Positions 4,232-40,516 of a stretch of 64,000 nt of DNA are shown here, piece after piece (the stretch's first letter is position 1; the number at the start of each line of letters is the position of its first letter). The position numbers and the translations under genes are program-made. The notes beneath the pieces are model-generated. The model saw only the letters and a program-made list of their open reading frames with translations, was not told where the DNA came from and did no database searches. The DNA comes from Tetrahymena thermophila SB210 (taxonomy: Eukaryota > Ciliophora > Oligohymenophorea > Hymenostomatida > Tetrahymenidae), in assembly GCF_000189635.1 (NCBI RefSeq), contig NW_002476030.1:182458-246457 (forward strand), in the 5' to 3' direction.

Positions 4232-7200
4232 ATGAACAAATATACACTGAGATTTCGCTCTAACCAATTAGAAGAAAAGTTTAAGAACGAAGTTTCTCAG
4301 ACTAATTGCTCAATTTTCTTAAAAGTACAAAGACTTTATCTTCTACTGATAACTTTTCCTAATTTAGTAATTACGATATCAGAGAAAAACTATGAACTCT
4401 TAATTGGATAGATAGCATAGCTAACATTTTAAGTTGTTGTTTACTTCTTAATATCAAATTACAGAAGATATGTTAATCTGTGGGTTACTTTACTAAACAT
4501 AGCAATAAGCATGTATATGGTGTTTTAAATTCGTTTTAAAAGCGCTACTATTGGATTAGATGAGAAAGGGACGGAATTTTATTATGGAGCAATAGGCTAT
4601 ATTCTTCATATAACTACATCTTTCTTAACCTCGAATCTAATTATGACATTTGCTCAAACAATTATTTCATTTATTTTGTAAAATTAACTGAAAATATAAT
4701 TTATTATCAAATTCTTTTTGAGTCATTTAATTGCTAAATCATTTCTTTTGTTTGTCAAATTGCATTAATAATTTAATAGAATATACATGAATGACGAAAT
4801 TTATTTATTTATTTATTTATTAATTTTAATTTACTTTTACTTAAATATAATATTGTTATTTATTTATATCATTTAGGTATTTTTGGGTCTTGTGGTCTCC
4901 CTAGTTTAACTTGATTAAATATACTTTTGTGGCTATATAGGTCTTTATGCTAACTGCTTATTATGAAAATCAAAAAAATTTTAGATCAACATTTCTATTA
5001 AGAGATGGCGAAAGAGAGTGGACGTAAATAATAAAGAAAGGACTTCTATAAAATATAATCACTGTTTAATACAACATCAAAAATAATGAGATAAAGCTTG
5101 ACTTGATTAATTAGCAGGCATAAAAGCAATTTAATATTTATAATCAGCAGCAATTTACTGCATTCTCACGAAAGGTTCATATATATGACCAAATAAGTGA
5201 CTATTAACAATCCCCAAAACCCTTAGATTAAAAAAAAATAATTGGCAATCTGTCAGTATCCTAACATAGAAATACTCTGGAGAATAAAATAATAACTTTA
5301 ATACAGTAGTATATGCTCCAAAAAAAAGATAAAGCTTGTGCTAAATTAATTAATAAATAAAATGAAGCAAAACAATATAAAAACTAGAATCCTAAAAATA
5401 AGTAAGTAAGTACTTCATGCATATAAGATCAAGACAACCAAACGAATTATTTATTCTATGGAGTGTATAGAACTTCTGAAGAAAATGCAGAATAAATAAT
5501 ATCTATTAAAGTCACTGTATATCGCTTTAAAACACAATATTCTTGTTGCTTAGTACTCAGTGAAAAAACTAAAAAAATAAAGATAAAATCTTTAGAAGAG
5601 ATAAATTTTGGCTTATAAAACAATATTTTTCAGCTATGCAAATTTACAGGTAACTAAGATTTTTAAAAACATTTTGATTTTGAGCATTTTATCTTCATAA
5701 TTAAGTTGAAAAAATGTTCATTTTTTTCAGTTTAAAAATGTTTTTTTATTTTAATTGATAAATTTAAAAAATTTAACTAAAAATTATTTTTTTAATTTTT
5801 TGAACATTTTTTTTTTTGATAGAAGCGAAAAAAAAATAGGCTGAAAAAAGTATTTTTTTATAATAAAATTTTTAGTTTAGTTGTTTATTATTGTTCATAA
5901 AAATAATCAATATATTAATTAATTTAACAAATAATATTTTTTTATTTAATAATTGATTTCTAAATATGATCTTTTGATTAAAAAAGGCGAGAAGCTGTAA
6001 AGTATTTTAATTAATGTATAAAACCAAAACTTTGTGAAAGCTGTTATATCTTAAGGATTAAATTAAATATATAACTATAGAGATCATGCTAATGTCTTGA
6101 AAAATCAGTTTAAAATAAAGTTTGAAAATCTTCCTATATCTTAAATATCATTAGATTAATTTTAATAATGTATTAGTTAAAGATACTTTGATAAAGCTAA
6201 TGAGATAGATCTAAGATTTCAATTTTAAAATTGCAATACCTCAAATTTTATTAATACTTATGTGGAATATTTTTACTAGGCGATTATGAATCTAATTGAC
6301 AATTCAATAAAACATCAAAATAATAATGGTCCTAACACCCCAAGAAAGTCTTATTATGGTTAAAATCATGTTTTAGAGAAATCTGAGTTAAAAATAAGAA
6401 AAAGTAAATACATTTAAAAATCACCATAAACAAAAAAACAGATAGATGATAGTAAAAATAATAATTTTCTTTCATGCAGAAACAAATAAGAAGAAACTCA
6501 AACTTAAAAAACTTTAGTAAGCATAAAAGAAATTATAATTTCTCTTGAGTTATTAAAAGGTGAAAATGAATAATCAAATATATTCAAAGTATCTGTGACT
6601 GACCAAGGCAAGGGAATGTCTCTCGAAGATCTAATTTACATACTAGAAATAGTGGGCACACAAAATCCAGTTTATAAACCTGATTATCAGAATTACAGCT
6701 TTCTTGGATGGAAAAATAATTTGTAAATAATAGGAAAATTAGGTCCATTCTATAATTTTTATATTAAAAGAAACATAAATCAGGTAATAAAAATAAATAT
6801 TTTAAAAATTAATTAAAAATTGAAATATTTTTTATTTAAAAAGGGCCTAGAGTACCATTTTTATATCTATCAAAATATAGATATCTTAAATAATTCTGAG
6901 TAGAAATAATGCAAAGTATTTTAAAACTCTCTCTTTGATAAAAGCTTAATAGAGTCTAATAATGAGTATTTCCATATCAACAACCTAAGCGAGTTAAAGG
7001 AGAGGAGAAATTTATTTAATTCCTTTAGCAAAAATGTAATCAAAAGTAATGTCAGTCTTACATTTACAAATTGTAATATAGCCTTCTAGTAATATGTCAA
7101 CAATCATAATGCTGATGCTGCTAAATAAGATGAACCAAATAGTTCTATTTCTATTTCTTCTGAAAAATTCTTTACATCTAACATTTATTTCTAAAAGTTT

Positions 7201-7266
7201 AATACTAAATTTGTAGAATCATTTTCTCCTAAATAGTAAGACTAAAAATTTCCAAAGTAAAGTTGA
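4232..7266 (+). CDS. Membrane protein with PAS-like and divergent GHKL ATPase domains, paralogue A
   Basis: Exons 4232-4677, 4877-5649, 5987-6783 and 6844-7266 give 812 aa ending in TGA. Exon 1 and the start of exon 2 encode about five or six hydrophobic segments (residues about 30-170). A W-containing segment (EREWTQIIKK, then NIITVQYN) resembles PAS domains. Exon 3 carries conserved NYRDHA (His440), an N-box-like MNLIDNSIKHQ (about 507) and a G1-box-like DQGKGM (612-617), as in histidine kinases. The usual glycine-rich G2 box is missing; GWK..LQIIGKLGPFYNF stands in its place. No canonical phospho-acceptor H-box or receiver domain is seen. The C-terminal exon is polar and Ser/Asn/Gln-rich. 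Introns were placed by matching paralogues B and C. A membrane sensor is inferred; ATPase or kinase activity is unproven. Confidence 0.8.
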
Positions 7267-7899
7267 TGTAATAAATTGTAATTATTATTTTTTTTTTTTC
7301 AAACTAAAATAGTAATTGCCAAAAAAAATAATATCTCATTATGCAAATGAAATAATATCTTGAATTATATTTACAAAATAAATAAATAATTTGTATTCAA
7401 CCATTTTTAAATTTAAATATTAAAAACCATTTTTATATTTTTTGAGTAGAAAAAATTTTATTTCAAGTGATTTTGTGTCTAAATAAATAAATAAAATATA
7501 AATTTTTATTTCAGGTAAAAAGCTAACTCATTTAATTTAAAGTGTTAAGAATCATTTTTTATATTTTTTTAAAAGAACAAATTGTATTCGAAGTGATTTT
7601 GTAATCTCTATGAAAAAATTGTAAATTTTTGTTTTTGTAAAAAAATAACTCAAAATTAAGTAAATTTTACATGGAAATTTGATGGAATTTACTTTAATAT
7701 AAAGCTAATTAAGTAAGTAAATAAATAACAAAATCTAAAAAAAGAAACAAATTAAATAAATATTGATCCATTCATCGACAGACATTTAGTAGAATTACTT
7801 CTATCTAATTAATTAATAAATCAATCAATAGAAAATACTGGATATATAAATATTAATTAACAAAGATAAGAAAAAGGTTTAAAAGACAAATAAATGGTA
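7267..7899. other. Intergenic between paralogues A and B
   Basis: About 630 bases of AT-rich DNA with many short A and T runs, holding the terminator of A and the promoter of B. No gene or RNA is seen. Confidence 0.6.
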
Positions 7900-10821
7900 A
7901 TGAATAAATTTACATTAAATTTCTAAAGCTAATAGCTAGAGGAATAATATCAAAAAGAAATAGTAGAAGTCAACAGAATCATTTTTTTTAAAGCGCTAAA
8001 AATGTATCTTTTATTAATATGCATTCCTGGTATAATTATTAGCATCTCAATGTAATAGATGATTTCACTAAAAAGTTAATTAGTGGCATTATTTCTCATT
8101 ATACTTTACTATTTTTTAGCAATGAAATATCCAAAATACTTTAATTAGTTGATTTTTTCAATTAACTTAATGTTTTCTATTGGAATGGCTGTTTAAATGA
8201 AAGTATATGGCACAAATCTTGGTATTGATGACTAAGGCTTCCTTTTCTTTTATGGGTGTGTTATATACACTCTCTAAATAACTCTCTCTTACCTAAATGC
8301 TAGTCTTAAACTAAATTTTGCACAAGTTCTTATTTCGTTTGGTTTGTAATCCTTTTAACTAAATATTTTAAATAAATAACATTTATTTAGAGTAGGAGTT
8401 GTTCCTACTAATTTCATATAAATTTATTAGTTTTGATTAATTTGATTAGTCAGTCTTTATAAAAATCTAAAATAAATTAAAACAATCAATTTGTGGTTGG
8501 CTAATATTTTTCAAAATTAAAATAAATTATTTTTTAATAATATATTTCAAAGGTGCTTTTGGGTGCTATGGTCTCCTAATTTTTATTTTCTTAAATATTA
8601 ATTTGGCGCTTCTTAGCTATTTGTCTTATTTATGCAATATACAACATAAAAGAACTAAAGGGAGAATTTCTTGCTCAGAGATAGTGAAAGAGAGTGGTCT
8701 AAGATAGTCAAAAAAGTAGTGAATTCTAGCATAATAACAGTAAAATATGACTAAAAAAACAACTAGCTCAAGCTAGATATGATAAATGACCAAACAAAAA
8801 AGATTCTCAATTTGAGTAATTCTGAAGATTTTAAATCGTTTTCTAGAAAAACTATAGTATTTGATAGATTTTAGGATTACTAGGAGGATGATCCAAATTC
8901 AAGTTTTGAAGAAAGAAATAAAGCTTTTTCATTATTAGAAATAAATAAATAAACCTAAAAGAATACTCTTGAAAACAGAATTATCAGCACTATTAAACAA
9001 TATATTTCTTATAAAATAAATAATAATGATTAAGAGTAAAATCAAGTAGAATATTCTCCTGAGATAATTAAAAAGCCAACAAGAATGTCAGTTTTTACTC
9101 CTACCTCATAATTTAATCCAGAGAAAAAGGTTGCTGATTTATTCTATGCTGTCTACAAAACAGATGACAATTAAGAAGAAAAAAGAATTTCGATTAAAGC
9201 AACTGCCTATCAGAACCAAACCGAATATCACTGCTGTCTAGTTATAAATGAAGAAACTAATAGACTTAAAACCTAATGTTTAGAAAAAATAAACTAAAGT
9301 TTATAAAGCTCTTTATTTGAATTCTGCATATATACTGGTATTTATTTATTTATTTTTCCCCTTTTATTTATTTATTTTTCCCCTTTTATTTCAAATTAAA
9401 ATTTCAGATTTTTTTATTTTCATAAAATAAATAATTTAGAAAATAATTTTAAAATACATAAACTAAATAATTAAAACAAATTATAATATAAAAAATAGGA
9501 GATAAGCTTCAAAATATAATGAAAAATATTTCAAAAGAGAGTATAATTAGGGCAAATATATCTCAATGCTTTAACTTTCTATATAATTATAAAGATCACG
9601 CAAATACGATAAAAAATTAGTTTAAAATGAAATTTGATAATTTTAATATATCTTAGCAATCACTTGAATAAATTGAAAATTAAATATACTTAAGATATTT
9701 AAACAAGATTGATGAAATTTAATTAAAATTTTAGCTCATAAATTGCAATCACGATACACAAATTACAACTTACACAGATTAATTCTTGTAATGCCTGATG
9801 AATTTAATAGAAAACTCAATTAAATTTCAATAAAATAATATAAAATGCAGTAGCTATAACTAGAATAGTTGTAGAACACAAATTTCTTTAAACGAAATTA
9901 ACTCTAATAGACACCTTAAATCTAGAAAATATAGTCCTAGCTTTAGTCCTAGGTTCCTAAAATAAATTAATTTTTAAGAAGAAGAAAAGTAAGAACAGGC
10001 AAATTTAAATATTAATGAACTACTTAGTTAAAATTCTAATTCAAAAGGAAACGAAATTATAATTTCATTAGAATTAATAGAAGGAGATAATGAAAAATCA
10101 AATATATTTAAAGTTACTGTTTAAGATAGTGGAAAAGGAATGTCAATAAATAAAATACAGTAAACTCTAGAAATTATTGGAACAAAGAGTCCTGCCTTTA
10201 ACTTTAACTATTAAAGCTATAAATAAATTGGATGGAAAGTAAATCATTAAATCATTGGAAAATTGGGCCCATTCTATAACTTTTTTGTTTTGAGTGAAAT
10301 AAATAAAGTAAAATTTTCTTCTTAACTTAATTAATTAATTTATTATTTGTTTATAAAATTTTCCATTTATAATAATTAATTTATTTAAATAAAAAAAGGG
10401 ATTAGTCTTTCATTTTTACATATTTTAAGATGTTGATATTCTATTAAATAAAGACTTTAAATAACTTAAGCTTTTCTAAAATTAGCTTTTTTAAAAGTAT
10501 TTAGAAGAATCGAAAAAGACATATTATCATATTGATAATATTTAGGAGTTACGACAATCTATTTCTAATTAAAACTTTTCACCTATTAATAGATTGAGCA
10601 GTGTCACAAATTAATATCAAAATAGACCTTCTTTATTCTCGTAATTTCCAGGGAATATAGACCAACAATTAAATGATACAATTTCTATTTCGTCAGAAAA
10701 AATGTAAAAAACACTAAATTCACCTAAAAATTTAGATTATTAAATGTCGAAAATATACACAATTGATAAAATACCTACATTAAAAAATAAATATGTTATA
10801 AGGGATCAAAATTGTATTTGA
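7900..10821 (+). CDS. Membrane protein with PAS-like and divergent GHKL ATPase domains, paralogue B
   Basis: Exons 7900-8345, 8553-9337, 9499-10307 and 10399-10821 give 820 aa. Exon 1 (446 nt) and exon 4 (423 nt) have exactly the lengths found in paralogue A. The start aligns with that of A (MNKFTLNFQSQQLEEQ); an in-frame ATG lies 6 nt upstream at 7894. Membrane segments are followed by CFWVLWSP and a PAS-like SEREWSKIVKK block. Exon 3 has NYKDHA (His444), MNLIENSIKFQ (about 511), DSGKGM (620-625) and IIGKLGPFYNF. The N-box carries Glu in place of Asp, and again no glycine-rich G2 box is visible. It lies in tandem downstream of A in the same direction, which suggests local duplication. Confidence 0.8.
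9341..9388. repeat. Two-copy tandem repeat inside intron 2 of paralogue B
   Basis: A TTTA-rich unit of about 22 bases ending in CCCC occurs twice in a row inside intron 2 (9338-9498). It stands out by its C tracts and has no apparent function. Confidence 0.7.
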
Positions 10822-12577
10822 GATTTCAATAAAATACCATATATCTATTATAAATTAAATCTTTATTTATATTTAATTCTTATTTAAAATATGTTCGTTA
10901 TTATATTTTTAAATTGATTTTTAAATATTCATATTTTTTATTAAAAAATAAAAAATTATTAATGTATTAATAAGTTAAATAAATTAATTTTAGCTTTTTA
11001 AATATTTCTTGAGTAGGAAAAATAAATTTAATAGAGCAATAAATATTATTTAATAAAATAAAAAAAGGTTTTGAAACAGGCTTCAAACCTGATAGAAAAA
11101 AAAATGTTTAATCAAAATTTAGTTTTTTAAAGAAGTAAATCTAAAATTTTTTATTAAAAATTTAATCTTAAATTAAATATTTTTATATAAAATTAATGAA
11201 AAAAAATGTTAACTCAGATTAAATGTTTGAAGTCAAATTAAAATAAAACTTTGCTAATTGTGATTTTCTATTTATGAACTCACTTTTCAAATTAGGAAGC
11301 TGTTTGATTTTTTTAGCTTCAAAAATCAATAAAAATTACATAAATTATTTTTTGATTGTTGATTGTTGTAATCAAATTTCCCTTGTTTATAATTTTCTGC
11401 CTCTTAAATATTTTAAGCGACAAATTAAACCTAAATTTTTATAATATTTTTACTCAGTTTAAAGCAAAGAAATAATATTTTATAATAAAAATAAAAAATT
11501 AGTTTTATATTTTTTTTCTCTATTCTATATATTCATATCATAAATTAAATATTTAATGTGATATATTAGCAAATATTAATCATTTTATTTTTATCAGCGC
11601 CAAAAAATAATTTCAGCAAGCAAGATATTAAATAAACAGAAAATTTACAGATGTATTATCAATTCTTAATCTATTTTGAGAAATTTTAGCTTCGAATTAT
11701 TTCTGAAATCCTTTAGATAAAGAGCAGCTTAAAAAATCAAAAATTAATTAATTAATTTTTTAAACTGATGATAAATAAAAATACAAAAATTATTTATCTA
11801 ATTGTAAATGAATCATTTGTATTTTTTTTTATAAATAGATTTAAATTTGATTTAAATTTATTTTTTCATAAAAATTCAATAAATATTTAAAAAAGTAAAA
11901 ATAAATAATAATTTTAAAATGTAAATATACAACATTTTTTCTGATATTTTTATGTTTTTCTTTTTGTTATTATCTTCAAAATGAAATAACTTATAAATTA
12001 ATAATTTTGGTGTAATTATTTGTTCTGAAAAGGTAAAATTAATTAAGAATCTTAGTTAGATTATTTTAATATACTGTAAATTTTCCCAAATTACCATGAA
12101 TGAGTTTATATTAACACCCAATATTTTAAGAGAGCAAAATTAATATCTAATGGGTAAAAATAAAAAAATATCTTTTTAAAAGATAATAATTTGCAGTAAA
12201 TATAATAAAATATCAATATTTTTGTGGTAAATTAACTTTGAGTGTTTCATATCCTTTAAATCTGAAGATTAAATTAATATGAATATTTCTATTAAGAACT
12301 CAAAAACTATGTTAAGAATAGAGTAATTTATAGACATATATAATATTTATTTAACATAAAATTCATAAAAAGTAAAATTATAAACCTAAAAACTGTTTAG
12401 TTAATACTATACTATAATAATGTTTAAAAAAATTAAACCTCCTTTTAGATAATTTATTATAAATTTGATTTCATATTCATCGAAAAATCTTCTTCAAGTT
12501 ACTACTTTAGGAATTTTATCTTGAGCTATAAATCAGATTAAAGCTTCAAATAGGTAAGCTTTCCCTAATTTTTAAAA
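10822..12577. repeat. Non-coding flank duplicated through the surface-antigen array
   Basis: No gene is seen. From about 11220 the sequence matches, with small changes, the DNA upstream of the later antigen genes (about 15910-17470, and partly 24140-26160 and 29510-31300). Shared landmarks include CACTTTTCAAATTAGGAAGC near 11281. It is therefore the 5' part of the amplified unit. Confidence 0.7.
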
Positions 12578-13284
12578 ATCCTTTCTAATTAATTTTTCTA
12601 GCTTACAGTCATTCAGTAATTAAAAATTATAATAAATAATTAGTTAGATAACATCTATTTTTCTTTTATTATGACAAATATATCATCCATCCATCCAATT
12701 ATTAATAATTCTATTTAATTTTTCGTCATATAATACTTGTTAAATAATATAATTAATTAATAAAACAAAAATATATGAGTTAAATAAACAAAAAAACCAT
12801 GAATAAAAAATCCTTATTCTTTGCTGCAATCCTTTTAGGCTTGATAAGTTGATGTGGTGATAACTAAACATAGATAACTATTATAAGCAACAATTATTGT
12901 ATTTGTAACGAGGGCTACTACGGATTAAGAATCCTTTTTAATTAATTTTTTCTAGCTTACAGTCATTCAGCTATTAAAAATTTTAATATCTAATTAGTTA
13001 GAGAAACATCTATTTTTCTTTTATTATGACAAATATATCATCCATTCATCCAATTATTAGTAATTTTATTTAAATTTTTCGTCGCATAATACTTGTAAAA
13101 TAATATAATTAATTAAATAAATAAAAATATATGAGTTAAATAAACAAAAAAACCATGAATAAAAAATCCTTATTCTTTACTGCAATCCTTTTAGGCTTGA
13201 TAAGTTGTTGTGGTGATAACTAAACATTGGTAACAGTTGCACTCGTCGATTATTGTGTTTGTAACGAGGGCTACTACGGAAAAT
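12578..13284. repeat. About 352-356-bp local tandem duplication of antigen promoter and first codons
   Basis: The block starting at about 12578 repeats at about 12930. Each half holds the same upstream stretch (TCTAGCTTACAGTCATTCAG, later ATATATCATCC) and then the start of an antigen gene. The left half breaks off in the gene after the codons for GYYG (12924) and jumps back into upstream sequence. The right half continues into the intact gene at 13155. Confidence 0.85.
12799..12924 (+). pseudogene. Truncated antigen-gene fragment with in-frame TGA
   Basis: The fragment begins MNKKSLFFAAILLGLIS like the intact copies. Codon 18, Cys in the intact genes, is TGA here (12850-12852). The fragment continues in frame through matching sequence (CGDNQTQ, later YCICNEGYYG) and stops matching at 12924, where duplicated upstream DNA follows. 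It can encode only a 17-residue peptide and is a relic of the tandem duplication. Its promoter region still looks like that of the intact genes, so it may be transcribed. Confidence 0.85.
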
Positions 13285-14234
13285 TAGGACAGTAATGTTA
13301 ATAATGCCCTTAAGGAACTACATCTATATCACCTTATGATCTACCTAATACATCTATTGGCTATTGTTCTAAATGCTTAAAAAATTACTTCATGTCAAAG
13401 AAAAGTTATATTCCTTCTCCTAATTCCCTTTAAAGTGAATCTCCTGCTACCTGTAATCCATGTCCTTCAGGTTCAGGAAATAGCAGTGGATCTTATAGTC
13501 CTGGAGATCAAACTCAATGCGACACATGTTAACCTAATTACTTTATGACAGCTGCAGTTTCATAAACTTAAGCAGCTTAATGTTCTCCTTGCCCACATAA
13601 TTCTGGTAACCAAGGTGTAAATGCTGCTGGAGATTAATCTTAATGCAATTAATGTCAGGATAATTCCTATATGACTGCTCCTGCATAACATGGATAATCT
13701 GCTTAATGTTCTCCATGTCCTCCAAATTCTTATAGTAGTGCTCCAAATTCTGTAGGTTTCTGCACGTGCTTTGATCCATTTGCCATCTCTTTATCATCCA
13801 CTCAAAATTCTTGCGTTTGCTAAAGTGGGTACGCAGGAAATGTAGCTACAGCTAAAGGTTAAAATGGTTGTTATAAATGTGGAAATAATTAATTTATTTC
13901 AGGAAATAAATGTGTGTCTTGTGCAGATGGTTCAACAGTTAATAAGGATTTAACTGGTTGTACTTGCAACGATACAAGTGATGGTACTATTGCTTGGAGC
14001 TCTAACACTAATATTTGTTAGTGCAAACCAAACTACTATGGGTCCCCTGATAAAGCCTCTTAAGGATCCTCAGGATCTTGTAAGCCGTGCCCTCAAGGTT
14101 CAACCTCTTAAGTTGGATCTAAAACAGCAGATTAATGTTAAAAGCCTCCTTCAGATAATCAATCTTAATATTCATACTCTTTAATAATTTCAAATTCTCT
14201 TCTTATTAGTTTTATTTTTATTATATTTTATTGA
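13155..14234 (+). CDS. GPI-type cysteine-rich surface antigen, copy 1 (immobilization-antigen-like)
   Basis: One exon, 359 aa, TGA stop. The start MNKKSLFFTAILLGLIS is a signal peptide. The body is built of spaced CxxC or CxC pairs (CQQCPQGT, CSKCLKNYFM, CNPCPSGSG, CDTCQPNYFM, CNQCQDNSYM, CSPCPPNSYS, CKPCPQGS). The last residues (ISNSLLISFIFIIFY) form a hydrophobic tail straight to the stop, as expected of a GPI-attachment signal. This combination matches ciliate immobilization antigens (Tetrahymena Ser proteins, Ichthyophthirius i-antigens), GPI-anchored proteins that coat cell and cilia. The exact antigen type cannot be told. Upstream lies the duplicated promoter region; the downstream flank is shared with copies 2-4. 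Confidence 0.85.
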
Positions 14235-17200: not shown

Positions 17201-17473
17201 AAATCAGATTAAAGCTTCAAATGCGTAAGCTTTCCCTAATTATATAAAAATCCTTTTTAATTAATTTTTTCTAGCTTACAATCATTCAGTTTTTAAAAAT
17301 TATAAAAACTAACTTATTAGATAACATTTATTTTTATTTTATTATCAAATTTATCATCCACCCAAATATTAATAATTCTATTTAAATTTTTCATCACATA
17401 ATACTTGTAATATAATATAATTAATTAAATAAATAAATAAAAAGATATGAGTTAAATAATAAACAGAAAAACC
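14235..17473. repeat. Duplicated inter-antigen spacer (copy 1 to copy 2)
   Basis: No gene is seen in 3.2 kb. The left part (14235 to about 15420) matches the DNA downstream of copy 2 (18548 to about 19990), for example TAATGATCAAGTAACTACCT near 15210 and 19810. The right part (about 15540-17473) matches the DNA upstream of copies 1, 3 and 4. Confidence 0.75.
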
Positions 17474-20720: not shown

Positions 20721-20905
20721 AAAATAAATTCTATGAAGGTATTTACTTATTTATTTATACATAATTAGCAATTATTTTAACCAATAAAAAGCTTAATTAA
20801 TAATCAGCCTAACAAAATTCAGATTAAAAACTTTAAAATATATTCATAAAAAAACATTTAATCATATTACTTATTTAAATATTATAAGTTAGACTTAAAT
20901 ATTTA

Positions 20906-22075
20906 TCAATTTAAGAATATTGTTAAAATAATAATTCCGATTGATAAAATCTATTAATATGAAGATAATTCTGTCTGAGTGGTAGAGGGAGGATTAAACC
21001 ATCTTGTTGAGTTAATGTATCCAGTATTTGGGTTCATTACATCAGTTGCAATTGTTGTTTATATAAAATTTGGAGATGATGACAAAATGTTAAAAATGTC
21101 TTATGGCTTCCATGAATTCTAATTCAGTAATCCCATTTTTTACTCACAGGGAACTCTTCTGTAGTCACTTGGGTCATCAGGCTACGATCTGTCGAAATTT
21201 GTTTAGCAAATAAACCAGGTAGATCCACTTAATGTCGTTTATAAATGAACCGCTTCTCTATCTCTCTCAATAACTGTTCCTTAATTTCCTGATAAACCTG
21301 CAATAATAAAGTAAGCAGGCATTGCAATTTTAGTATTCATTAAAGAATCGAGAGCATCTGAATAGGTTGTCTTTGTTTAAAGAATCTTATAGATTAGGTA
21401 GCAAGCTGGGATATATTGTTTTTATAAGTAAGATATTGCTTATCCATCATCCTATCTCTAATTGATAGTAATTGAAAAACCATTAGGGACTATACCTGTA
21501 ACCACAATAGCTGTTCCTATTACCATATCTGCAATAAATACAGTTTTACCACCTCTTTAAAAGTCGATGTTAGCAAGAAGTGGGGATATATACTTAACAA
21601 AACTGTAGTCTAAGTTTCTAGCATGATATATGCTTCCATCAGAGTGTCTTGCAACTATAGATGTACATCCAATAGAATCGAGTGCTTCGTACATTTAACT
21701 CAATAACTGAAGAGTTTCAAACTTTACTCCAGCTAAAGTAGCTATAGCTTAAACTTCACCCATGAAATCAGGATCTTTGTAAAAAGGAAGTTAAGATTCC
21801 AAGGCTACAGCTTTTGGGAGCTATTCAATACGAGTTTCAAATCCTTGAATGGCACTTTTATAATTAGTTATAATTTCTCTCCATCTATCTTAGTATGATA
21901 AATCTAAATTAACAACGTATTTAGGTAATGAGGCTCCACTTGTTTATGCTAGACTTGTATAATTTGCACATTATAAAGGTTTTTCGCCATTATAAACACA
22001 ATAGGAAGGCTATAAAGCTATTGCAGATATGAAAGCAAGTATAAGAAGGAATATTGTCTTGAAATTTGTGATCAT
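20906..22075 (-). CDS. Acid ceramidase / NAAA-family lysosomal-type amidase
   Basis: One exon, 389 aa, TGA at the complement of 20906-20908. The start MITNFKTIFLLILAFISAIA is a signal peptide. NLDLSYQDRW near residue 60 matches the N-terminal beta-subunit domain of this family. GCTSIVA with Cys137, then SIYHARNLDY, matches the autoproteolytic Cys nucleophile and the following R.LD motif of acid ceramidase and N-acylethanolamine acid amidase. Later blocks (FIIAGLSGNQGTVIERDRE and WFICQTNFD) also fit. Such enzymes cleave the amide bond of ceramides or N-acylethanolamines after self-cleavage before the Cys; the substrate here cannot be told. An oddity is a hydrophobic C-terminus (ILSIGIIILTIFLN) that could be a GPI or membrane tail. 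It is opposite in strand to the antigens and breaks their spacing. Confidence 0.88.
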
Positions 22076-25000
22076 TTAAGATTTATTTTTTGAGAGTGTT
22101 ATTATTTTATTTTATTTTTAAGATTTATAACTTTAATGAATATCTGATTTAAATAAACAATTACAAACTTATTTGAATTTTAAATATTAAATTGTCTATA
22201 TTATCACAAATGAAAATTCATTAAAATTTTGCATGAGCTGAATTTAAAGCAAATTTTAGTAAGTCATTTAATTAAAAATTCGATAGAAAAAAAAAGAAAA
22301 AAACAAATCGAAAATCGATATTTCTAAAAAGGTAAATATAATAAATTAACAAAATATCTAAAAAACTTAATATAATTATTTTAGCGCTTTGTATTCAAAA
22401 AAATAATTTTTAACTTGAAGGAAAGTAGAAAATGTTACCTTATCAAGTAAATAAATATATTGAATTTCATACATATACATGATACTAAATTAAATACTAA
22501 AGCTTTTTTACTTATTAAATAATGTAAAAAGTTAATTACTATTTTTATCTATTTTCTAATTATAGTCGTAAGAAATGAGCGTATCAAAAAATTAGTAAAT
22601 CAATCAAACCAGTAAATTTTTTTTGGCATTAAAACCATGATAATATACAAAACGCAAATAAAGTTGCTTTAATTATAATGAAATGGACTTACTCAAGTAA
22701 AAATAAAAATTTGAATAAATTATTTTATCTTTATTTACTAAATTACCTCTTAGAAATCTAATTTGCATTAAAATGATGATTTATTAATGATCAAATATAT
22801 TTTTCTTATTGAGGTAAATAGACTAAATTTCAGAAATTAATAATAAATTAAAATATGAGATTTTATCAGAATTGCATAATTACAGAATAATAAAAGAGTT
22901 AGATAGAAAAAATTAATTTTTTTTGAATAAAAGTGATAAGATTTCAGTTGATAAATAATAAACAAAAAGCCAAATTCTTAAATAAAAGAATTTATATTTT
23001 GAATTATTTAAATTAGCAAAAATAATTCTAATCAAATAATTTTTTTTAACTATTTGTTATGATTATACTAATAGAAACATACTAAAATCAATAATAAAAC
23101 AAGTTAAATTATTTTTTTATTCAAATAATAAATATAGATTTTCTATGAAATATAACCCTCGAAAAAAGCGCTTTCTTCCCATTGATAACCAAATATTTTT
23201 TAATAAATTACAATTATTAATATTTTATATATGTATGTAATGATTTGGAATATTATCCAATAAAAATTGTTAAATTTATAAAATAATGTTTTAAAACTAA
23301 TAATTTGAAGTATTTATTTCATAAAATTGTGGTTTAAATTTGTTGTAAAATATCTTTACTAAGCTTATGTATGTATACACTACTTAAAATTAATATAAAT
23401 AATTCAAAACCTATTGAATTTTCTATTCATCTAAAAATTATCATACTTTCTTTTTATTTTATACTTTTAAATTATTATAAACCCCGTATTTTGTTTGGCA
23501 TATCCATTTTGATGATTATTAGTAAATTTTAATTAGAAAGTTCAAAAAAGTTTATTACAATTACAAAAATGTTTGTAAAATTATAATAGAAAAAAGAATA
23601 ACAAAAATTCTTAAACATAAAAGTAATGTAGAAAGATAGATAAACAGATAATATGATAATAAAAAGTCATTTCATTTTGAGATTTTTCTGTTAAGGAGTT
23701 TTATATTAAAAAAAACTAAATCATATTTTTACCTCATAAAAAAAAAAATTTATAAGATGAATAGTATTTAAGCAAATAGATATTAATTAAAACAATGGTT
23801 GCTTAAAACAAGAATATTTTTTTGATTAAAAATAAATAATAGTCTTTTAATCATATTTTTTTATATTTGAAAGGTAAATAATAAGAAGTAATTATTATTT
23901 AGTAATAAATTATTAAATATTGTTTGCTATTTTCTCATTTATAACAATTAATTTTTTAAAACTGTAAACTATTTTTTGATAAACCTAAATTTTATTAAAT
24001 AATTTTTACAATATTCAACTTTTAAGCTTTGTTTCATCATTTTTTTTTCATAACAAATAAATCCAATATAAAATTAAATTATTTTCTAACAAAATATTTC
24101 AATATTAAATACAAAATATTTTGATAAAAACAAACTTAACTCAAGTCAAATTAAAATAAAACTCTACAAATTGTGATTACCTATTTATCAATTCACTTTT
24201 CAGATTAGGAAACTATTTGATTTTTTTAACTTCAAAAATTAATAAAAAAATATGAATAAAAATTGCATTAATTATTTTTTAGATTTTTGTAATCAAATTT
24301 CCCTTGTTTATAATTAATTTTCTGCTTCTTAAATTTTTTTTAACAATAAATGAAACCTAAATTATTATAAAATTTATACTAAATTTAAAGCAAAGAAATC
24401 ATATTTTTATAACGAAAAATATAAATAATTTTGATATTTTTTTTTCTTATTCTATATCTTCATATCATAAATTAAATATTTTAAATAATTTATCAACAAC
24501 TAATAATCATAGTACTTTTTTTTCAGTTTCAAAAATTAAAATCAAACCAGATGTTAAATTAATAGAGAATTTACAGTTGTATAATAATTTCTGAATCTTT
24601 TTTGCGAATTTGTAATTTTGAATAAATTCTGAAATCTATTAGACAAAGAGCAACTTCAAGAGTCAAAAATTAATTAATAATATAGATTGAAGATACATAA
24701 AAATACAGAATATTTTATCAAACTGTAAATGAATTATATGAGTATTTTTTATAAATAGAATTAAATTAAGTTTAAATTTTTTTTTTCATTAAAATTCAAA
24801 TAATATTGAAAAAAGCAAAAATAAATAATAATTTTATAATGTATATATAAATCATTTTATCGAATAGCTTTATGTTTGTCTTTTTGTTATAGTTTTAAAA
24901 TGAAACAACTTCTAAATTAATATTTTGGGTATAAAAATTGATCTGAAAAAAGAAAATTAATTAATTAATTACCTTAGATTATTTTAATATAAATTAATTC

Positions 25001-30200: not shown

Positions 30201-31307
30201 AATGAATCAACTTATAAATTAATATTTTAGGTTTAAAAATTTGATCTGAAAAAAGAAAATTAATTAATTAATTACCTTAGATTATTTTAATATTAATTAA
30301 TTCTGAAACCTATTTGCTGACACAAAAATTAATATCCACTAATTCACTCATACATACATCTTTCAAACACTTTTATTATAAATAATGTAAATTATTTAAT
30401 ATTAGAATCTATATTTTTTTTCATAAAAATTCAATAAATAATCAAAAAAGCAAGAATAAATATTCATTTTATAATGTGTAAATAAAACTCTTTTTCGAAA
30501 ATCTTTATGATTGTCTTTTTGTTCAATTCTTAAAATGAATCAACTTATAAATTAATATTTTAGGTTTAAAATTTGATCTGAAAAAAGAAAATTAATTAAT
30601 TAATTACCTTAGATTATTTTAATATTAATTAATTCTGAAACTTATTTGCTGATACAAAAATTAATATCCACTAATTCACTCATACATACATCTTTCAAAC
30701 ACTTTTATTATAATTAATGTAAATTATTTAATATTAGAATCTATAATCTTCTTCATATTTTTAAATAAACTCAATATAAATGTTCCATGATAAAACTCAT
30801 TATTATTGGAAATATGAGTGTGAAGATAATAGTTTACAGTAAGTATAAATTAAAAATAAAAGATCAATGTTTTTAGTTGTAAATTAATTTTAAGTATTTA
30901 TTTATTTCATATCCTTTAAATCTAAAAATTGGATTAAATTAAAGTAAATATTTTTAAAAATGAAACCAACTTACAAATAATTTAATATAAATTAGATTTC
31001 ATAATCAATCAAAAAATCTTCTACAAGTTAATACTTTATAAATGTTATCTATAGCTCTTAATCAGATTAATGTGTAAGCTTTCCTTCATTAAATAAAAAT
31101 CCTATTTTAATTAACTCTTCTATAGCTTACTGAAATTAAATTATTCAAAAATATAATAACTAATTAGATAAAATAAAATTTTATTTTATTATGATAAATA
31201 TATCAGCTAAACATTAGTAATTCTATTTAAATTTACCATTACAGAATGAATAATAGTAGTATAATTAATAAAAATAAAAATATTTGAGCTAAATAAACAA
31301 AAAAACC
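27261..31307. repeat. Duplicated inter-antigen spacer (copy 3 to copy 4)
   Basis: No gene in 4 kb. The left part (27261 to about 28930) matches the DNA downstream of copy 4 (32397 to about 34100) closely. The right part (about 29090-31307) matches the spacer before copy 3. It contains its own internal tandem duplication, listed separately. Confidence 0.7.
30081..30755. repeat. About 338-bp tandem duplication in the copy-4 upstream flank
   Basis: A block beginning TTTCATAAAAATTCAATAAA at about 30081 repeats from about 30419 with few changes, including the shared TTAATATCCACTAATTCACT. The matching position before copy 3 has only one unit. Confidence 0.85.
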
Positions 31308-32396
31308 ATGAATAAAAAATCCATATTTTTTGCTGCCATCCTTTTAGGCTTGATAAGTTGCTGTGATGATAACTAAACATAGATAACTACTCTAAGTGAT
31401 AGTTTTTGTATTTGTAACTAGGGCTACTATGGAGCAATAGGGCAATAATGTTAATAATGCTCTTAAGGAACTACATCTGGCTCACCTAATTAATATCCTA
31501 ATACATCTATTGGCTACTGTAAATATTGTTTACAAAATTACTTCATGTCAAAATCAGCTCCTAAACCAGGAGGTAGACGTTTCCTTTTAACTGAATCTCC
31601 TGCTACCTGCAATCCATGTCCCTAAGGTTCAGGAAATAGCAGTGGACCTGTTAGTGCTGGAGACGAAACTCAATGCAACACATGTTAACCTAATTACTTT
31701 ATGACAGCTGGAGTTTCAAATACTCAAGCAGCTTAATGTTCTCCTTGCCTACTTAATTCTGGTAACTAAGGTGTAAATACTGCTGGAGATTAATCTTAAT
31801 GCAATTAATGCAAAGATAATTTCTATATGACTGCTCTTGCATAACAAGGATAATCTGCTTAATGTTCTCCTTGTCCTCCAAATTCTTATAATAGTGCTCC
31901 AAATTCTGTAGGTTTCTGTACATGTTTTGATTCATTTGCCATCCCTTTATCAGCCACTCAAAATTCTTGCGTTTGCTAAAGCGGGTATGTAGGTAATGTA
32001 GCTACAGTTAAAGGTTAAAATGGATGTTATTAATGTGGAAATAATTAATTTATTTCAGGAAATAAATGTGTGACTTGTGCAAACGGTTCAACAGTTAATA
32101 AGGATTTAACTGGTTGCACTTGTAGTGATACAAGTGACGGTACTATTGCTTGGAGCTCAAACACTAATATTTGTTAGTGCAAACCAAACTACTATGGGTC
32201 ACCTGATAAAGCATCTTAAGGTTACTCAGGATCTTGCAAGCTGTGCCCTTAAGGTTCAACCTCTTAAGCTGGATCTAAAACAGCAGATTAATGTTCTAAA
32301 TCTTCCTCAGATAATACTAATCCAACTTCAAAATCACTCTCTTTAATAATTTCTAATTCTATACTTATTAGTTTTATTTTTATTATATTTTATTGA
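31308..32396 (+). CDS. GPI-type cysteine-rich surface antigen, copy 4
   Basis: One exon, 362 aa, nearest to copy 3. The signal peptide is MNKKSIFFAAILLGLIS, followed by CCDDNQTQ. Private changes include SKSAPKPGGRRF in the variable first third, CSPCLLNSGN (Leu-Leu in place of Pro-His or Pro-Phe) and SKSSSDN near the tail. The Cys spacing is otherwise the same as in copy 3 and the tail is intact, so the gene looks functional. Confidence 0.85.
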
Positions 32397-35202
32397 ATTT
32401 CATTTTGACTTGTTTTATTAATCATTTTAAAATCACTATCAATGAGCTTTTTTTCTTGAATATTTTTCTAAATAAAATAAAATAATATTTATATATGGTA
32501 AATTTTCTTGAGTCATTAAATTCCTATTTTTTTCAGCTAAAATATCTTAAATTTTAAAAAATACTATTTAATTAAAATCTGAATTGATTTGGGAAATTGA
32601 AAAAAATTTAGATTACAGTTAATGAAAAACAAAAAATAAAAGAAATCAATAAATTCTGATAAACTATAAAAGAAAATAATTACAAATTTATTAATAATAA
32701 TTAAAATGAAACTTATTTATGAGCAAATTTTTTATAAGTTTATTTTCAATTATTTTATTATAATAAATGAATCCCAGTTATTTTAAAAATATTTCTCATT
32801 TTAGTATTGAACTAACATTAAAATATTTTTTTCAATTTAAAAGACTTTTATTCAAATTGAATAATATTTAGTGATAGAAAAAATAAATCAAGTAATCAGT
32901 TTAAATACATATAAAATAAAATAATTTATCTAAAAAACTACATAGTATTGAAAAGTAAAGAAATAATCATTAGCAAATATATAAGTACAAAAATGAAACT
33001 GATTACTATTTTACCAATAAATATAATACTTCTATCAATTTAACAAAAAATTTGAATTTCATATGCGTTAAGTTCGTTTGTTAAATTCTTAATTAATTTG
33101 TGTAAATTCTTAATATCAAAAATTAATTAAGTAAATTTTATATTCTTTAACAAAAGTATATTTTTAAATTTTATTCTTAAAAAAAATAAATAAGAATTTA
33201 GAATATTTAAATATATAAAAAAAATTCTGCAATCGCTGATTGTAATTAACAATCAATTACAAATAAAAGGATATTTAAGTTTTTAGTAACTTTTGAAACA
33301 ATATTAGATAGTGTATTTAATAATTTAAAGCATCTATTAATGATTTATATGACTAATTAATTTTTAGATTATATTTAATTCAGAATTCAAAAGATTGCAA
33401 AGAAAAAATAATCTAAAAAATCCATTTTTCAAAACTATAAATTGTAAACAAAAAATAAATTAATAATAAATTTAAGTTGCTTTCTATGACAGTTTCATAA
33501 TTTAAAAATGTTTATTATAAAAAAAATTTGATAACTTATAAACTTATAAAATTCAAGTAAAAGCAAAATATTAATTTTATAGATATAGTAGTTGAATTAA
33601 TAATTTTTTAATAAAATTCTAATAAAATTAAGCGAAAATTGTATTTAAAATCTGAAAAAATATTTTATAATAATAGCTATTATCAAATAAAAATAAAATA
33701 AATAATGAAAATTAAATTTCTACTAATTTTTTAATTTGTTAAGTAAAGAAGAATTACTTCACTCTTAAACCCAATATGATCACTAAAAAATTACTTATTT
33801 TTAATTTATTACAAATCAATAATTAAGTTGTATCAAAATTTTTTCTAATTTAAATAAATGAAATCAATATATCAAATATCAAAATAATATTTGTCAATCG
33901 TTTCTGTTTAAATCTATTTAATAATTAAATGAATTACAAATTTCAATTTTATAACTTGTAAGTCAATTTAATTGTTAGAATACTAATTAATAATTTGAGT
34001 AAAATTTATATTTTTTATGATTAAATTTTATCTATTGTAAGTCCGTCAATATTTTAAAAATCTTTTATATTTCCAAACCATGATGCTGATATTTATTTAA
34101 ATTTTATTACAAAGTGAATTTAATCTAATTGAAATTTTTTATTTATTTGAGTAATTGCAGTAACAATATAATTATTATTTTATTTTTTGTCTAAAATAAA
34201 TAAGATATTAACTAATCAAAATTAATACAAAATATCTTGAATATATATTTTTTTTTATTAACACATGAAAGCAAATAACTATTTTATTCAATTTATTGAA
34301 TTACTTAAATTTAGAAATTAATAAATAGGGTTCAATATTTGATGTAAATTAAAAATTAAAACTTATTTAGTCTGAAGATGACAAGAATTTCATTGCAAAA
34401 TTTCATTCATATTTGAATAAACGCTTTTAAAAACCATCCTATTCTTTTCCATTTAATAATAAATTCTGCATTTAATAAAAAAAAAAAATATTATTTCTTT
34501 AGATAATTGCAAAAAAAAATATTTTTTTTATTTCTTTTTATAAAATTCTTATTTGAAAAAGAAATCAAAGATTTTTTTTCTAAATTTTGTGTATTTCAAT
34601 TGAAGCGTAAAAAATATAACTCCTCTTAAAATATATACTAAAATGAGCAACTATCATTCAATATATTTAACTTAAAAGGTAAGCTATAGTTGAAATTCTA
34701 AATATTTTAAAACAATAAATCATACAAGAAAATTAAAATAAAATAATACATCATTGAATAGCGACCTCAATCATTATAGATAATTTAAAAACTTAAAATT
34801 TTATTTTATTATTTCTTCCTTCAGTTCTTAATATTCATATTTCAATTAATTTTTTTTATTTTGTAACTTATGTTTCTAGACCTATTTTTTTAATATTTTG
34901 TAATAAATTTAATCAAAAAATCATAATCAAATCAGACTTTTAATAATCTTTAAGGTTTACTTGAAATTAATTAAAAGACTTGTTTAAACTTGTTAAACAA
35001 TAAAAATCCTATTTAATTTATAACTTTTATATATTGATTAATAACTAACTAACTATCAATAACCTATTTATTTCTATTTAATAAAAGAAGTTATAAATTT
35101 TATCTTTCTATTTAAAAAAAAAAACTTATGGTGTTAGTTTTGATAAAAATTTAAGTTTAAAGAAATAAATATCAAAGCAAACACAAAATCTAAAAAAAAA
35201 TA
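32397..35202. repeat. Duplicated 3' flank of copy 4, then unique DNA before copy 5
   Basis: From 32397 to about 34100 the sequence matches the DNA downstream of copy 3. From there to copy 5 I see no similarity to other array flanks and no gene; only AT-rich DNA with several homopolymer runs. Confidence 0.65.
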
Positions 35203-36294
35203 ATGATAAATAAATCTCTAATCTTTGCTTTCTTAATTTTAAGCTTTATAAGCTGTTGCTCGCAAAACTAAGTAGAGGTAACTATTAAAACTAAAGTGTG
35301 CCTTTGTTCAGCAGGTTACTATGGTGATACAACAGCTGGCGATTGTTAAAAATGCCCATAAGGAACTACATCTTTGCCACCAGACTCAAAACAATTGAAT
35401 TTAGATGTCAGTTTTTGTTCATAATGCCAAATAAATTACTATATGAACTAATAAGCTGTACAGCCTAAAGGACGTTTGTTGTAAACAGCAGCTATTTGCC
35501 TTTAATGCCCTCAAGGAACAGGAAATAATAGTGGTCCAACAACTAAAGGCGATTAATCTTAATGCAATGTTTGTTTACCTGGTTATTATATGACAGGATA
35601 TCCTTAACCAAATCAACCTGCTTAATGCACTCCTTGCCCATCTAATTCTACCAATAGAGGAGTGAATATAATTGGAGATGTATCTTAATGTGATTATTGT
35701 AAAGATAATTTCTATTTGACTGCTACTGCTTAACCAGGTAAAAATCCTTAATCTGCTTAGTGTTCTCCTTGTCCTGCTAATTCATATAGTAGTGCTTCAA
35801 ATACTTAAGGATTTTGTACATGTTTTGACTCAAATGCAAATCCTTTATCAGGTTCTCAAACTTCTTGTGCTTGCTAAAGTGGGTATGCAGGAACTGTAGC
35901 TACAAGTAAAAGCGTTCCAAGTGGATGTTAAAAATGTGGAAATAACTAATTTATTTCTGGAAATACTTGTGTGACTTGTGCAGATGGTTCTACAGCTAAC
36001 AAAGACTTCAGTGGTTGCACTTGCAATGACACAAGTGATGGCACTAGTGCTTGGAGCTCATAAAATAATGTTTGTTAATGCAAATAAAATTATTATGGAA
36101 CCCCTGATAAAGCATCTTAAGGATCTACAGGAAGTTGCAAGCAGTGTCCATAAGGAACAACCTCTGTAGCTGGATCAAAAACATCTGATTTATGCCTAAA
36201 ACCTCCTAAGGATAACAGCTCAATCTCCTAATCTAATTCTCTAATAATTTCATTTTATATTATAATTAATTTAATCTTTATTGCATTATATTGA
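35203..36294 (+). CDS. GPI-type cysteine-rich surface antigen, copy 5 (diverged)
   Basis: One exon, 363 aa, TGA stop. It has the same architecture: signal peptide MINKSLIFAFLILSFISCC, the same order of CxxC blocks (CQKCPQGT, CSQCQINYYM, CNVCLPGYYM, CTPCPSNST, CDYCKDNFYL, CSPCPANSYS, CKQCPQGT) and a hydrophobic tail (FIALY). It is much more diverged than copies 1-4 are from each other and starts with an Ile insertion after Met. Its flanks do not match theirs, so it is an older member or an outgroup of the recent amplification. TGTDNDTSDG-type blocks common to all copies are kept as CTCNDTSDGT. Confidence 0.85.
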
Positions 36295-37363
36295 ATACTT
36301 CACATTTATTTGCATTAGAGGTTTTATTTGAATAATTTTTCATTTATGACATTTTAAAATAAATATATGAATGATATATATCTGTCTATACTTTGGTAAA
36401 TCTATTTTTTTTATATATTCCATAGCATAGCATGTATTTAATATTATTATTATATTTTTAATTTTATTTAGTTATTATCTTCAATTACCTTTCTTTTCTG
36501 GTGCATTTGATCTTGATTTTATTAATTCTTTTCTTGTAACAGTTCTAAAGCATAGGATCAAGTTTCTTTTAATTTCTGATTTTTTTTTGAATCTGATGTA
36601 CTTTCTGATAATAGATTAATTGTTGTCTATCTTCCCGATGAATTTTTATCTACTTCGTATTATAAAAATATCTTAAATATTGCTTATCCTGTAGTTAAAA
36701 TATCACCAATTATGTTTGTAGGTACAGGATGTGATATTTCATTTAATTTTTATCATTTTAAGATAATTTTATATTAAAACTAGGAACTGTCTGAAATATT
36801 TTGAATCAGGTGTTAAATATCCCTCTTTAAATTGCTAAAAATAAAGAAATCACTAATATTTTTTTCAAAAAAAACCACTTTTAAATAAATGTAAGAGAAG
36901 TAGAATTAAGTATTAAAAAAGAAATATTAGGATAAAGATAAACTTTAAAAATAGTTTTAAGCTATTTAAAACTATTGATAAGATTGTTTAATTATAAGTA
37001 AGAATAATAACCAAATATATTGATTTTCAAGTATATAAATGAAGTTAAATATTATTTGAGTAAAATTAATTGATCATTTAAAATAATAGTTAATTATTTA
37101 TTTATTTATTTTTAAATTTAATTATTCTGTTATAATGTTTCAAACATATTTAGAAAAATAAATAAGACTATTTATCTTGATATTAATTTAATTAGATCGA
37201 GCCAGCTAATAATTTTTGAATAAATAAATTAATTAACTCAAAAATTAATCTGAACATATTGCTTAGAAATTTGAAGTAAGCAATTTCATTTAATTAAAAG
37301 TAGGATTAACTATAATAACATACATAAAACTCTTCAAAGAGACTAAAAAAGATAGAATCATTA
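36295..37363. other. Intergenic between antigen copy 5 and paralogue C
   Basis: About 1.07 kb. A frame without TGA runs from about 36479 to about 37041, but its translation matches nothing I recognise. Such frames are expected by chance when TGA is the only stop. It otherwise holds the promoter of the next gene. Confidence 0.45.
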
Positions 37364-40300
37364 ATGAATTAATTAACTTTATGCTTTGATTCACGTATTC
37401 TAGAGTAAAAATTTTAAAAAGAAATAACTCATACAAACTAAGAATTGCTAAGGAAAGTATTTATAGTCCATTTAATTCTTGTAATTACTCCTAGTTTAAT
37501 TATTTCTACTTGGCAATTAGAAAAGGCTGGTATGATGCTTTTCGCTGCTTCTTTGATAGGAAGTCTATCATAAATATTGCTATACAAAACTATGTAAAAA
37601 TGTTTCAATTTAGTCATAAACTCTATGATTCTAATGAGCTCTATGTTTCTTTGTTTTCTTGTCTACCTATTTGGGACTAATCTTAAAATCAATGATCCAA
37701 ATATGCTTTTCTATTTAGGTTCGTGTATTTATACTATATAAATAGGAATGTCGCTTTTTAGCTCAAGTTTTATTATGACATCGTTTGCTGTAATCGTTTC
37801 TGTGATATTGTAAGAAAGTTTATTTTTTTTTTCCTTAAAAAAATTAATTTTACTTCAGAGCATTTGTATTTCGCATAATGCCATTTTATTACTTTACTTA
37901 TTTGTTTTTGATTTTCACTATGCATCAAAAAATAAATAAAAATTAATACGTCAATTAAATTAAGAAAGCAAATAAATAAATAAAAATAAGTATCAGAATA
38001 TTGAAAGACAGTAAAAATATTAATTAATTGATTAACTTCAAAAGAAACAAACATTAATAATATTTATTTAATATATATATTAGATTTTCAACAGCTTTTT
38101 TAACACCACAAATATATGGAATAAAGCTGTCGTTTTTTGCAATCACCATTTTCTATCTTTATATAGTTTATATAACACAGAAAAATAGAAGAGAACTCTT
38201 TTTATTTAAAGAAAATTAAAAGCAGTGGTCAGAAATAGTAAAAAAAGTGATACCCTCAAGTATTATAACTGTAAAATACGACCAAAAAAATAACTAATTG
38301 TTTTTGGATAGTATTAATGATGAAGCAAAAAAACTACTTTAGATATTTGATTCAGATTAATTTAAGATTTTTTCCAGAAAAACTGTAGTCTTTGATAAAT
38401 TTTAAGAAATTGATGAAAATGAAGGTAAAAAAAATATGGCTAACAATTTTCATGATAAATAAATAAAGTAAGGTTAAAGAGTGCTAAATTCACTAGAAAA
38501 TAGAATTATTTCCATATTAAAATCAAAAATTATAAATTTCGAAAGATAAAAATCAATCTAATTTAGCAAATTTAAAGTAAATAATTCTTAGGATTAAGAT
38601 AATACGAAATAAGAATTTAAATCTAAAAATAATAAATATTAAATATAAGAAGTATTTTATGGTTGCTTTAAGTAAGAAGAGACATAAATCGATAAAATAA
38701 TATCAATTAAAGCTTCTCCTTATTAAAAGTAAACTGACTTTTTGTGCTGCTTAGTTATTGAAGAGCAAACAAATAACTAAAAAATAAAAGCCCTAGAAAT
38801 CATAAACAAAACATTTGAAACTAATTTCTTGCAATTCTGTTTGTATTTAGGTATTAATTTAATATTTTTAATAGATCAAACGCCTATTTCAATATTAAGA
38901 ATTGATTAATAAATTGAAATTAATTTAAAATATATTTATTTCTATTTGATTTTAAGATATTAAAAAATCTAATTTAATTTTCATAAAAGAAAAAATATTA
39001 AATAATAAAAATTTTATGATTTCTTTTTTTGATAATTCTTAATTTAAATAATATTTTTTTAAAATAATCAAGGGAATAAACTTTAAAATATAATTTTTAA
39101 TATCGGCAACGAGTCAATAATAAAATCAAATATTTATTAATGCTACAATAAGCTTTATAATTATAAAGATCATGCATTAATAGTAAAGAATTAATTTAAA
39201 CTTAAGACAAATAACAGTCGGATATAATAAATTAATTTGGAGGATTTTAAGAGTTTAATTTAATCAAGATTTTTAAATAAGATAAATGAATTAGATATCA
39301 AGTTTAGCTTTATAAATTGTGATACTTCAACATAATTAAACACGTATGTTGATAAACTTAATTAAATAATAATGAATTTAATAGAAAACTCTTTAAAATT
39401 TTAAAAAAATGAGCAATTAACTACTTTATATGATTAATCAGCTTATGCCAGTTAAAGGTCTCGTTGCCATAGCTCATAATATAATAATAGCTAGATGAAA
39501 AGAATAGAACAAGAATCAAATTGTAAAGATTCTGTTTTATCTAACTGTTTAATTGATTTTAATGATTAGACTATAAATAAAAGTATATTTAAATATGATT
39601 AAAGTGGAAATAAATTTGAGATTCTTAATTCTACCAGAAACGATGCAAATATAAGCGCTTTAGAAATTTTATAGGCATAAGAAACAAGCATAAATAAGAC
39701 AGAGGTTAATATAAATATTGAATTAATAAAAGGAGAAAATCAATTTTCAAATATCTTTAAAATAAGTGTCTGTGATAAGGGTTAAGGAATGAGCAATTCA
39801 AGCATAATTCAAATATTAGAGATTATAGCAAATAAAAACTCTGTATTCAACTCTGATTATTAGAATTATAATTTTATAGGGTGGAAAGTCAATCATCAAA
39901 TAATTGGAAAAATGGGTCCTTTTTACAGTTTTTATGTGAAAAGTGAAAAAAATTAAGTAAGTAAATGTTTATTTATTTTTTAAATTAATTCATAATAGAT
40001 ATTTTTTTAATATTTAAGGGATTGGAATATCATTTCTATATATTTTAGGATATTGATATACTAAATTAGACATAACTCAACTCCGAAGTAAAATTATTTG
40101 AGAATAACTAGTTTTAAGAATACATCTTAGACTCTAATCAAAATTATTATCATGTTAACAACATTGAATTTCTCAGAGAAAATATAAAATAAACTAAAAA
40201 AAATTCAAAAATACGCATGAAGAATAACTCTACTCTCAACAATCAATATATGTATTAGTAAACAAAATTAGCATCAAACTAATTTGTAAGATAGCTCAGA

Positions 40301-40516
40301 ACTAGTAGCGTTAATAAATAGATAGAAATTCACAAATTTAACAACACCACATCAAATTCCAATTGCATAGAAGAATCTGAATGCTCACTAAGTTAAAATA
40401 ATATTAAAAAAATTAATTCTAATTAAATTTTAACCGTTTAGTCAGCTCTAAAAATTAACTAAGAAAAATTCCAGGGTTTTCAAAAATATTTTTAAGATCA
40501 AGATTAGGATTTTTGA
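37364..40516 (+). CDS. Membrane protein with PAS-like and divergent GHKL ATPase domains, paralogue C
   Basis: Exons 37364-37809, 38084-38850, 39073-39956 and 40019-40516 give 864 aa. Exon 1 is again 446 nt. The start MNQLTLCFDSRILEQKFQKE aligns with A and B. Hydrophobic segments are followed by a KQWSEIVKK PAS-like block. Exon 3 holds NYKDHA (His438), MNLIENSLKFQ (about 505), DKGQGM (639-644) and IIGKMGPFYSF. Between N-box and G1 it has a longer polar insert than A or B. In G1 the usual second-Gly context GKGM is GQGM. It lies 27 kb from A and B, on the far side of the antigen array, in the same orientation. A role as a membrane signal sensor is inferred only. Confidence 0.8.

Follow-up and report, generated by a model that had tools for sequence, protein, structure and literature searches.

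Worn histidine kinase cores in a tandemly expanded family of probable membrane-bound sensors in Tetrahymena

Three related genes, A, B and C, in the 64-kb window (the whole stretch of DNA analysed, which forms the end of contig C391) probably encode membrane-bound histidine pseudokinase sensors, members of a ciliate family derived from ordinary PAS-histidine kinases. In such proteins, a membrane module of putatively six helices would pass a signal to a PAS domain, and the PAS domain would relay it via a helical linker, what is left of the DHp dimer domain, to an ATPase domain of the GHKL type. Autophosphorylation on histidine would have been lost, and the protein would instead change shape in response to nucleotide or signal and so act on a partner kinase or effector, as has been proposed for DivL and discussed for degenerate ethylene receptors.

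Gene structure and family size

The gene models were built with TAA and TAG read as glutamine and TGA as stop (table 6), and rest on open reading frames (ORFs), splice dinucleotides and conservation. Manual rebuilding divides each gene into four exons, with three GT..AG introns between them, and all three genes lie on the plus strand, A and B in tandem and C separate. Gene A occupies positions 4232-7266 (exons 4232-4677, 4877-5649, 5987-6783 and 6844-7266), gene B positions 7900-10821 (exons 7900-8345, 8553-9337, 9499-10307 and 10399-10821), and gene C positions 37364-40516 (exons 37364-37809, 38084-38850, 39073-39956 and 40019-40516). The spliced coding sequences run in frame to TGA, with lengths of 2439, 2463 and 2595 nt, stop included. 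Identity to gene A is 28-48% across the four exons, which is far beyond chance. The sequence-only reading had proposed paralogous genes starting at 4232, 7900 and 37364, a first exon of 446 nt in each, and a DHA histidine codon and an N-box methionine codon beginning 98 and 299 nt into exon 3. All of this agrees with the models, in which GT directly follows each first exon and exon 3 starts at 5987, 9499 and 39073.

The same reading described a family of three members with a rigid gene layout. When exon 3 of gene B was searched against its own genome (101.0 Mb, 445 contigs), 28 matches were obtained, which correspond to 19 places: three in the window, seven on C156, two each on C193, C172 and C116, and one each on C48, C267 and C377. 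Searches with exon 2 of gene B and with two outer relatives added approximately 25 looser relatives, and both counts are lower bounds. The genome is probably that of Tetrahymena thermophila: one of its exons matches the CFAP45 chain of 8g2z, a T. thermophila structure, at 119 of 119 residues. As for the layout, the spacings are exact in A, B and C but are common across the family: the GT donor lies exactly at nucleotide 446 in nine of the twelve members with a visible start, and the exon-3 AG acceptor and its phase are kept in 17 of 18. Given that these sites are kept family-wide, the exon layout is inherited gene structure, and its use as a separate signal was rejected. The copy on C48 reads through without the family's introns.

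Sixteen of the 19 copies have another copy on the same contig, and such tandem arrays would also fit a multiplied family in decay, in which many copies are becoming pseudogenes and the motif losses described below reflect loss of function. The exon 2 matches of C193_161 and C377, which contain two and one TGA, respectively, point the same way, as does a C156 pair whose exon 2 dN/dS reaches 0.71. However, dN/dS was below 1 in all 15 comparisons by simple estimates, ranging over 0.20-0.50 in nine exon-3 pairs and 0.21-0.71 in six exon-2 pairs (dS is saturated among A, B and C). Most copies have intact ORFs and splice sites, and the block comprising the G2 region and its helix is strongly kept. 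We consider decay of the family an improbable explanation. Locus L036 (C193:160136-163312), with broken exon 3 frames and two TGA within its exon 2 match, is likely an individual pseudogene.

The kinase core and its motifs

Exons 3-4 are shown by profile comparison to be homologous to ordinary histidine kinases, from DHp helix 2 through the last ATPase strand. A profile-profile alignment of 18 members against six ordinary histidine kinases encoded in this genome yielded a probability of 97.8, an E-value of 8.1e-13 and a score of 95.1; permuting the columns 60 times never gave a score above 19.3, and the reversed control reached 19.4. A profile of 17 exon 3 sequences searched against PDB sequences gave ten matches at E<=10, nine of them to histidine kinases or to ETR1 (lowest E-value 1.6e-6; ETR1 at 0.08) and the tenth to a centromere protein. 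HATPase_c was matched at E<=0.1 in 11 of 17 members (best 1.3e-5), sensor kinases make up most of the NCBIfam models among the matches listed, and the ordinary histidine kinase profile matched five of the nine outer relatives examined (best 1.2e-21). The histidine-kinase-like ATPase region that had been proposed from the sequence is therefore borne out by these profiles.

Single-sequence Pfam scores are low, HATPase_c (PF02518) scoring 20.5, 21.4 and 17.5 bits in A, B and C, below the cut-off of 26.4, and the block GWK-x5-IIGK-x-GPFY lacks an exact counterpart by eye. These two points would suit a genuinely new fold or nucleotide-binding block unrelated to histidine kinases, yet the profile alignments to ordinary histidine kinases, PDB kinase sequences, HATPase_c and NCBIfam sensor kinases make such an origin very hard to credit. 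An AlphaFold2 model of the ATPase part of gene A (exon 3, intron 3 read through in frame, and the first part of exon 4), built from a three-row alignment only, reached a pLDDT of 35.9, so the assignment of a Bergerat fold rests on the sequence profiles.

The genome's ordinary sensor histidine kinases (L001-L008) resemble the family in having a PAS-type linker before the core, an N-box and a G1 box, a helix and GP turn after G2, and last strands of the form KGxxFxFxIYQ; the exon 4 motif KGLxFHFYIFQDxDI aligns with KGSKFIFEIYQSLDI of these kinases. Unlike the family, they carry SHELRTPLN or THDLKTPLN together with GxGLGL (six of the eight ORFs, with H-box and G2 both seen). Contig C368 (151 kb), which bears L002, L007 and others, holds six of the 38 above-cut-off HATPase_c matches and constitutes an array of ordinary histidine kinases.

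Motifs were compared in an alignment of 17 members, C156_372 and C193_161 being left out as too divergent or broken. The DHA histidine, whose codon lies at 6085-6087 in A, 9597-9599 in B and 39171-39173 in C, is not the phosphoacceptor. Whether all of the alignment is used or just its DHp part (score 23.5, against 19.8 for the best of 100 permutations), the DHA segment falls on LINDILDYSQ in DHp helix 2, and the residue corresponds to the tyrosine in (I)LDY(S/A)Q; its identification with the H-box was thus rejected. In the 17 members the residue is His in eight, Gln in four and Tyr in five. The stretch of gene B aligned to the ordinary H-box (SHELRTPLN), at 9280-9327, is at the end of exon 2 and contains no histidine. 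In that column, no histidine was found among the 17 rows with a letter, which have F, Q, K, R, S, T or N, one further row being gapped. This register is weak, coming from a permissive global alignment only (the alignment with default settings begins after the H-box), and C156_374 and C377 have a histidine one or two residues off the column.

The N-box (MNLIDNSIK in A, 6286-6312; B, 9798-9824; C, 39372-39398) and the G1 box (DQGKGM in A, 6601-6618; B, 10125-10142; C, 39774-39791) had been described as kept, which is true of A, B and C. Among the 17 members, the N-box Asn is present in 15 and the G1 Asp in 16, and the full DxGxG in seven, having been lost in ten. On a tree of exons 1-2, these G1 losses require four changes, at least two of which are forced by well-supported branches, and shuffled labels were as clustered as the losses in 81-84 of 500 trials. 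Independent losses of G1 within the family are likely. The C116 and C172 pairs, both without DxGxG, have exon 3 dN/dS of 0.40 and 0.43.

The G2 box was originally thought to have been replaced by a new block, GWK-x5-IIGK-x-GPFY (GWKNNLQIIGKLGPFYNF in A, 6706-6759; B, 10230-10283; C, 39879-39932). This block aligns with GLGL[A/S]I..kkl..lGP of the same-genome ordinary kinases, GWK falling on GLGL, and IIGK-x-GP on a helix with a GP turn that ordinary ciliate kinases share (e.g., GLGLAICKKLVQLMGP in L004). The part after G1 aligns to ordinary kinases on its own as well, again with GWK on GLGL (E 3.7e-5, score 31.0, with none of 100 permutations exceeding 16.1), and bridging forms exist, namely GLK and GLR in L045, L046 and L054 and LGLQVN in the C116 pair. 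This alignment and these intermediate forms identify the block as a worn G2 box together with the helix and strand that come next. The GxG of G2 is absent from all 17 members, with a single glycine (that of GWK) left in A, B and C. Among exon 3 windows of the same length, the G2/helix block ranks 2nd of 251 in conservation, the N-box 18th of 261, the DHA segment 36th of 260 and G1 123rd of 261.

With the N-box Asn and the G1 Asp present in nearly all members, A, B and C may still bind nucleotide, and some kinase activity towards another residue might persist. A, B and C might even be active GHKL-type kinases that phosphorylate serine, threonine or an unusual histidine, perhaps the DHA histidine, as pyruvate dehydrogenase kinase or plant ethylene receptors can, given that N-box Asn and DxGxG are intact in all three. 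The passages of PMC4730734 used here describe Ser/Thr kinase activity in vitro for degenerate ethylene receptor domains. Against such activity are the missing GxG in 17 of 17 members, the Gln or Tyr in place of the DHA histidine in nine of 17, and the loss of the G1 glycines in most relatives; we regard an active kinase as rather unlikely. The pseudokinase, proposed already as one of two readings of the sequence, remains the best one given an H-box column without histidine, in a weak register, and the universal lack of GxG.

A Pfam scan of the exons 3-4 ORF of gene A showed no C-terminal receiver domain. Beyond the ATPase part, exon 4 of all three genes (6844-7266, 10399-10821 and 40019-40516) retains K-[VL]-F-[QE]-N-x-x-F, a short motif to which FQNxLF in the outer relatives L045 and L046 is similar.

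Input domains

For exon 2, the predicted fold is that of a split PAS domain (in gene B, positions 8659-9279), a match that supports the PAS-like block recognised earlier. At the sequence level, no Pfam model of PAS was matched at E<=1 in 16 members, and a profile search of the PAS region gave no PDB sequence match at E<=10.

Approximately six membrane segments lie in the part encoded by exon 1 and the first portion of exon 2. Hydropathy exceeds the threshold in five, five and six segments of A, B and C, respectively, which makes the earlier estimate of about six a fair one. A profile of exon 1 matched adenylyl cyclase 5 with an E-value of 8.3e-4. The match is short (profile positions 3-75), and both halves are matched, with domain scores of 13.9 and 8.0 bits, neither of which is significant by itself. 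Adenylyl cyclase 9 gave a weak match (E 4.3), three complex I chains rank between the two cyclases, and the best E-value of the reversed control was 0.28. The conserved N-terminal segment of gene B (7900-7974, MNkfTLnFqSqqLEeqyqkE), which lies ahead of the first membrane segment, is similar to the sequence that leads into TM1 and TM7 in adenylyl cyclase 5. None of 2000 shuffles of each of three cyclase fragments scored as well, these fragments having been picked by that same search. A single-sequence genome search with exon 1 of gene B gave 18 matches at E<=1, none of them at a cyclase place; the genome contains 50 Guanylate_cyc matches. The adenylyl cyclase Pfam model (Adcy_cons_dom) gave no match at E<=5 with exon 1 alone in 11 members; weak matches to it had come from ORFs extending upstream of the start codon. 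Kinship of the membrane part with the six-helix adenylyl cyclase domain is a weaker lead of this analysis.

The six-helix membrane domain of class III adenylyl cyclases is a proposed lipid receptor. In both CqsS-type quorum receptors and class III cyclases, as proposed for the family, six membrane helices feed the output domain, a histidine kinase in CqsS and a cyclase in the latter. For CqsS, the likeness lies in the design of six membrane helices and a kinase, known from description rather than from sequence comparison; for the cyclases, it lies in the short, modest profile match above. The portion of PMC4821796 considered here calls the CqsS and cyclase membrane anchors an identical 6TM design. 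A bolder and distinctly less probable proposal than the pseudokinase itself would thus be that the family combines an adenylyl-cyclase-related six-helix module with PAS and a histidine pseudokinase, as a eukaryotic CqsS-like counterpart in which phosphotransfer was swapped for an allosteric, perhaps nucleotide-dependent, output. If true, the cyclase link bears on the open question of what cyclase membrane domains sense.

Known systems and neighbouring genes

Histidine pseudokinases are known one by one, from bacteria and plants. The present case seems to be a tandemly expanded ciliate family of at least 19 members in a genetically tractable model, with motifs graded from nearly complete to heavily worn, which would permit tests of the role of the kinase fold once phosphotransfer is gone. 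DivL and other bacterial histidine pseudokinases, according to the parts of PMC5361649 used here, likewise combine PAS with a histidine kinase fold whose phosphoacceptor histidine is changed, and have been proposed as sensors or regulators of another kinase. DivL binds a response regulator, and its likeness to the family is drawn as an analogy. Subfamily II plant ethylene receptors share membrane helices and a degenerate histidine kinase domain with the family (PMC4730734, in the sections consulted), but have three or four membrane helices and a GAF domain in contrast to six and a PAS domain. As far as tested, the two are of independent origin.

An undescribed class, as first suggested, is too strong a description. 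In the consulted part of the Ichthyophthirius paper (PMC3341644), an 'atypical histidine kinase family' is reported as greatly expanded in ciliates; the expansion is ciliate-wide, with many members found by orthology only. Some or all of the genes of our family may already be in Tetrahymena kinase catalogues as histidine kinases. In the open-licence literature on ciliate histidine kinases, PAS, GHKL and pseudokinases (titles and abstract openings), no description of the A/B/C family was found.

Other ORFs in the window have recognisable relatives. On the minus strand, the ORF at 1023-3491 matches PHM7_cyt (Pfam, 60.3 bits) and the plant-type stress-gated channel chain 6oce, and is OSCA/TMEM63-like. 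Also on the minus strand, the ORF at 20906-22603 is NAAA/choloylglycine-hydrolase-like, and an Actin-family exon at 47723-48961 (146 bits) covers the first third of the model only. Just upstream of gene C, on the plus strand, 35038-36294 has a weak, below-cut-off match of the ELAPOR1-like TNF-receptor type.
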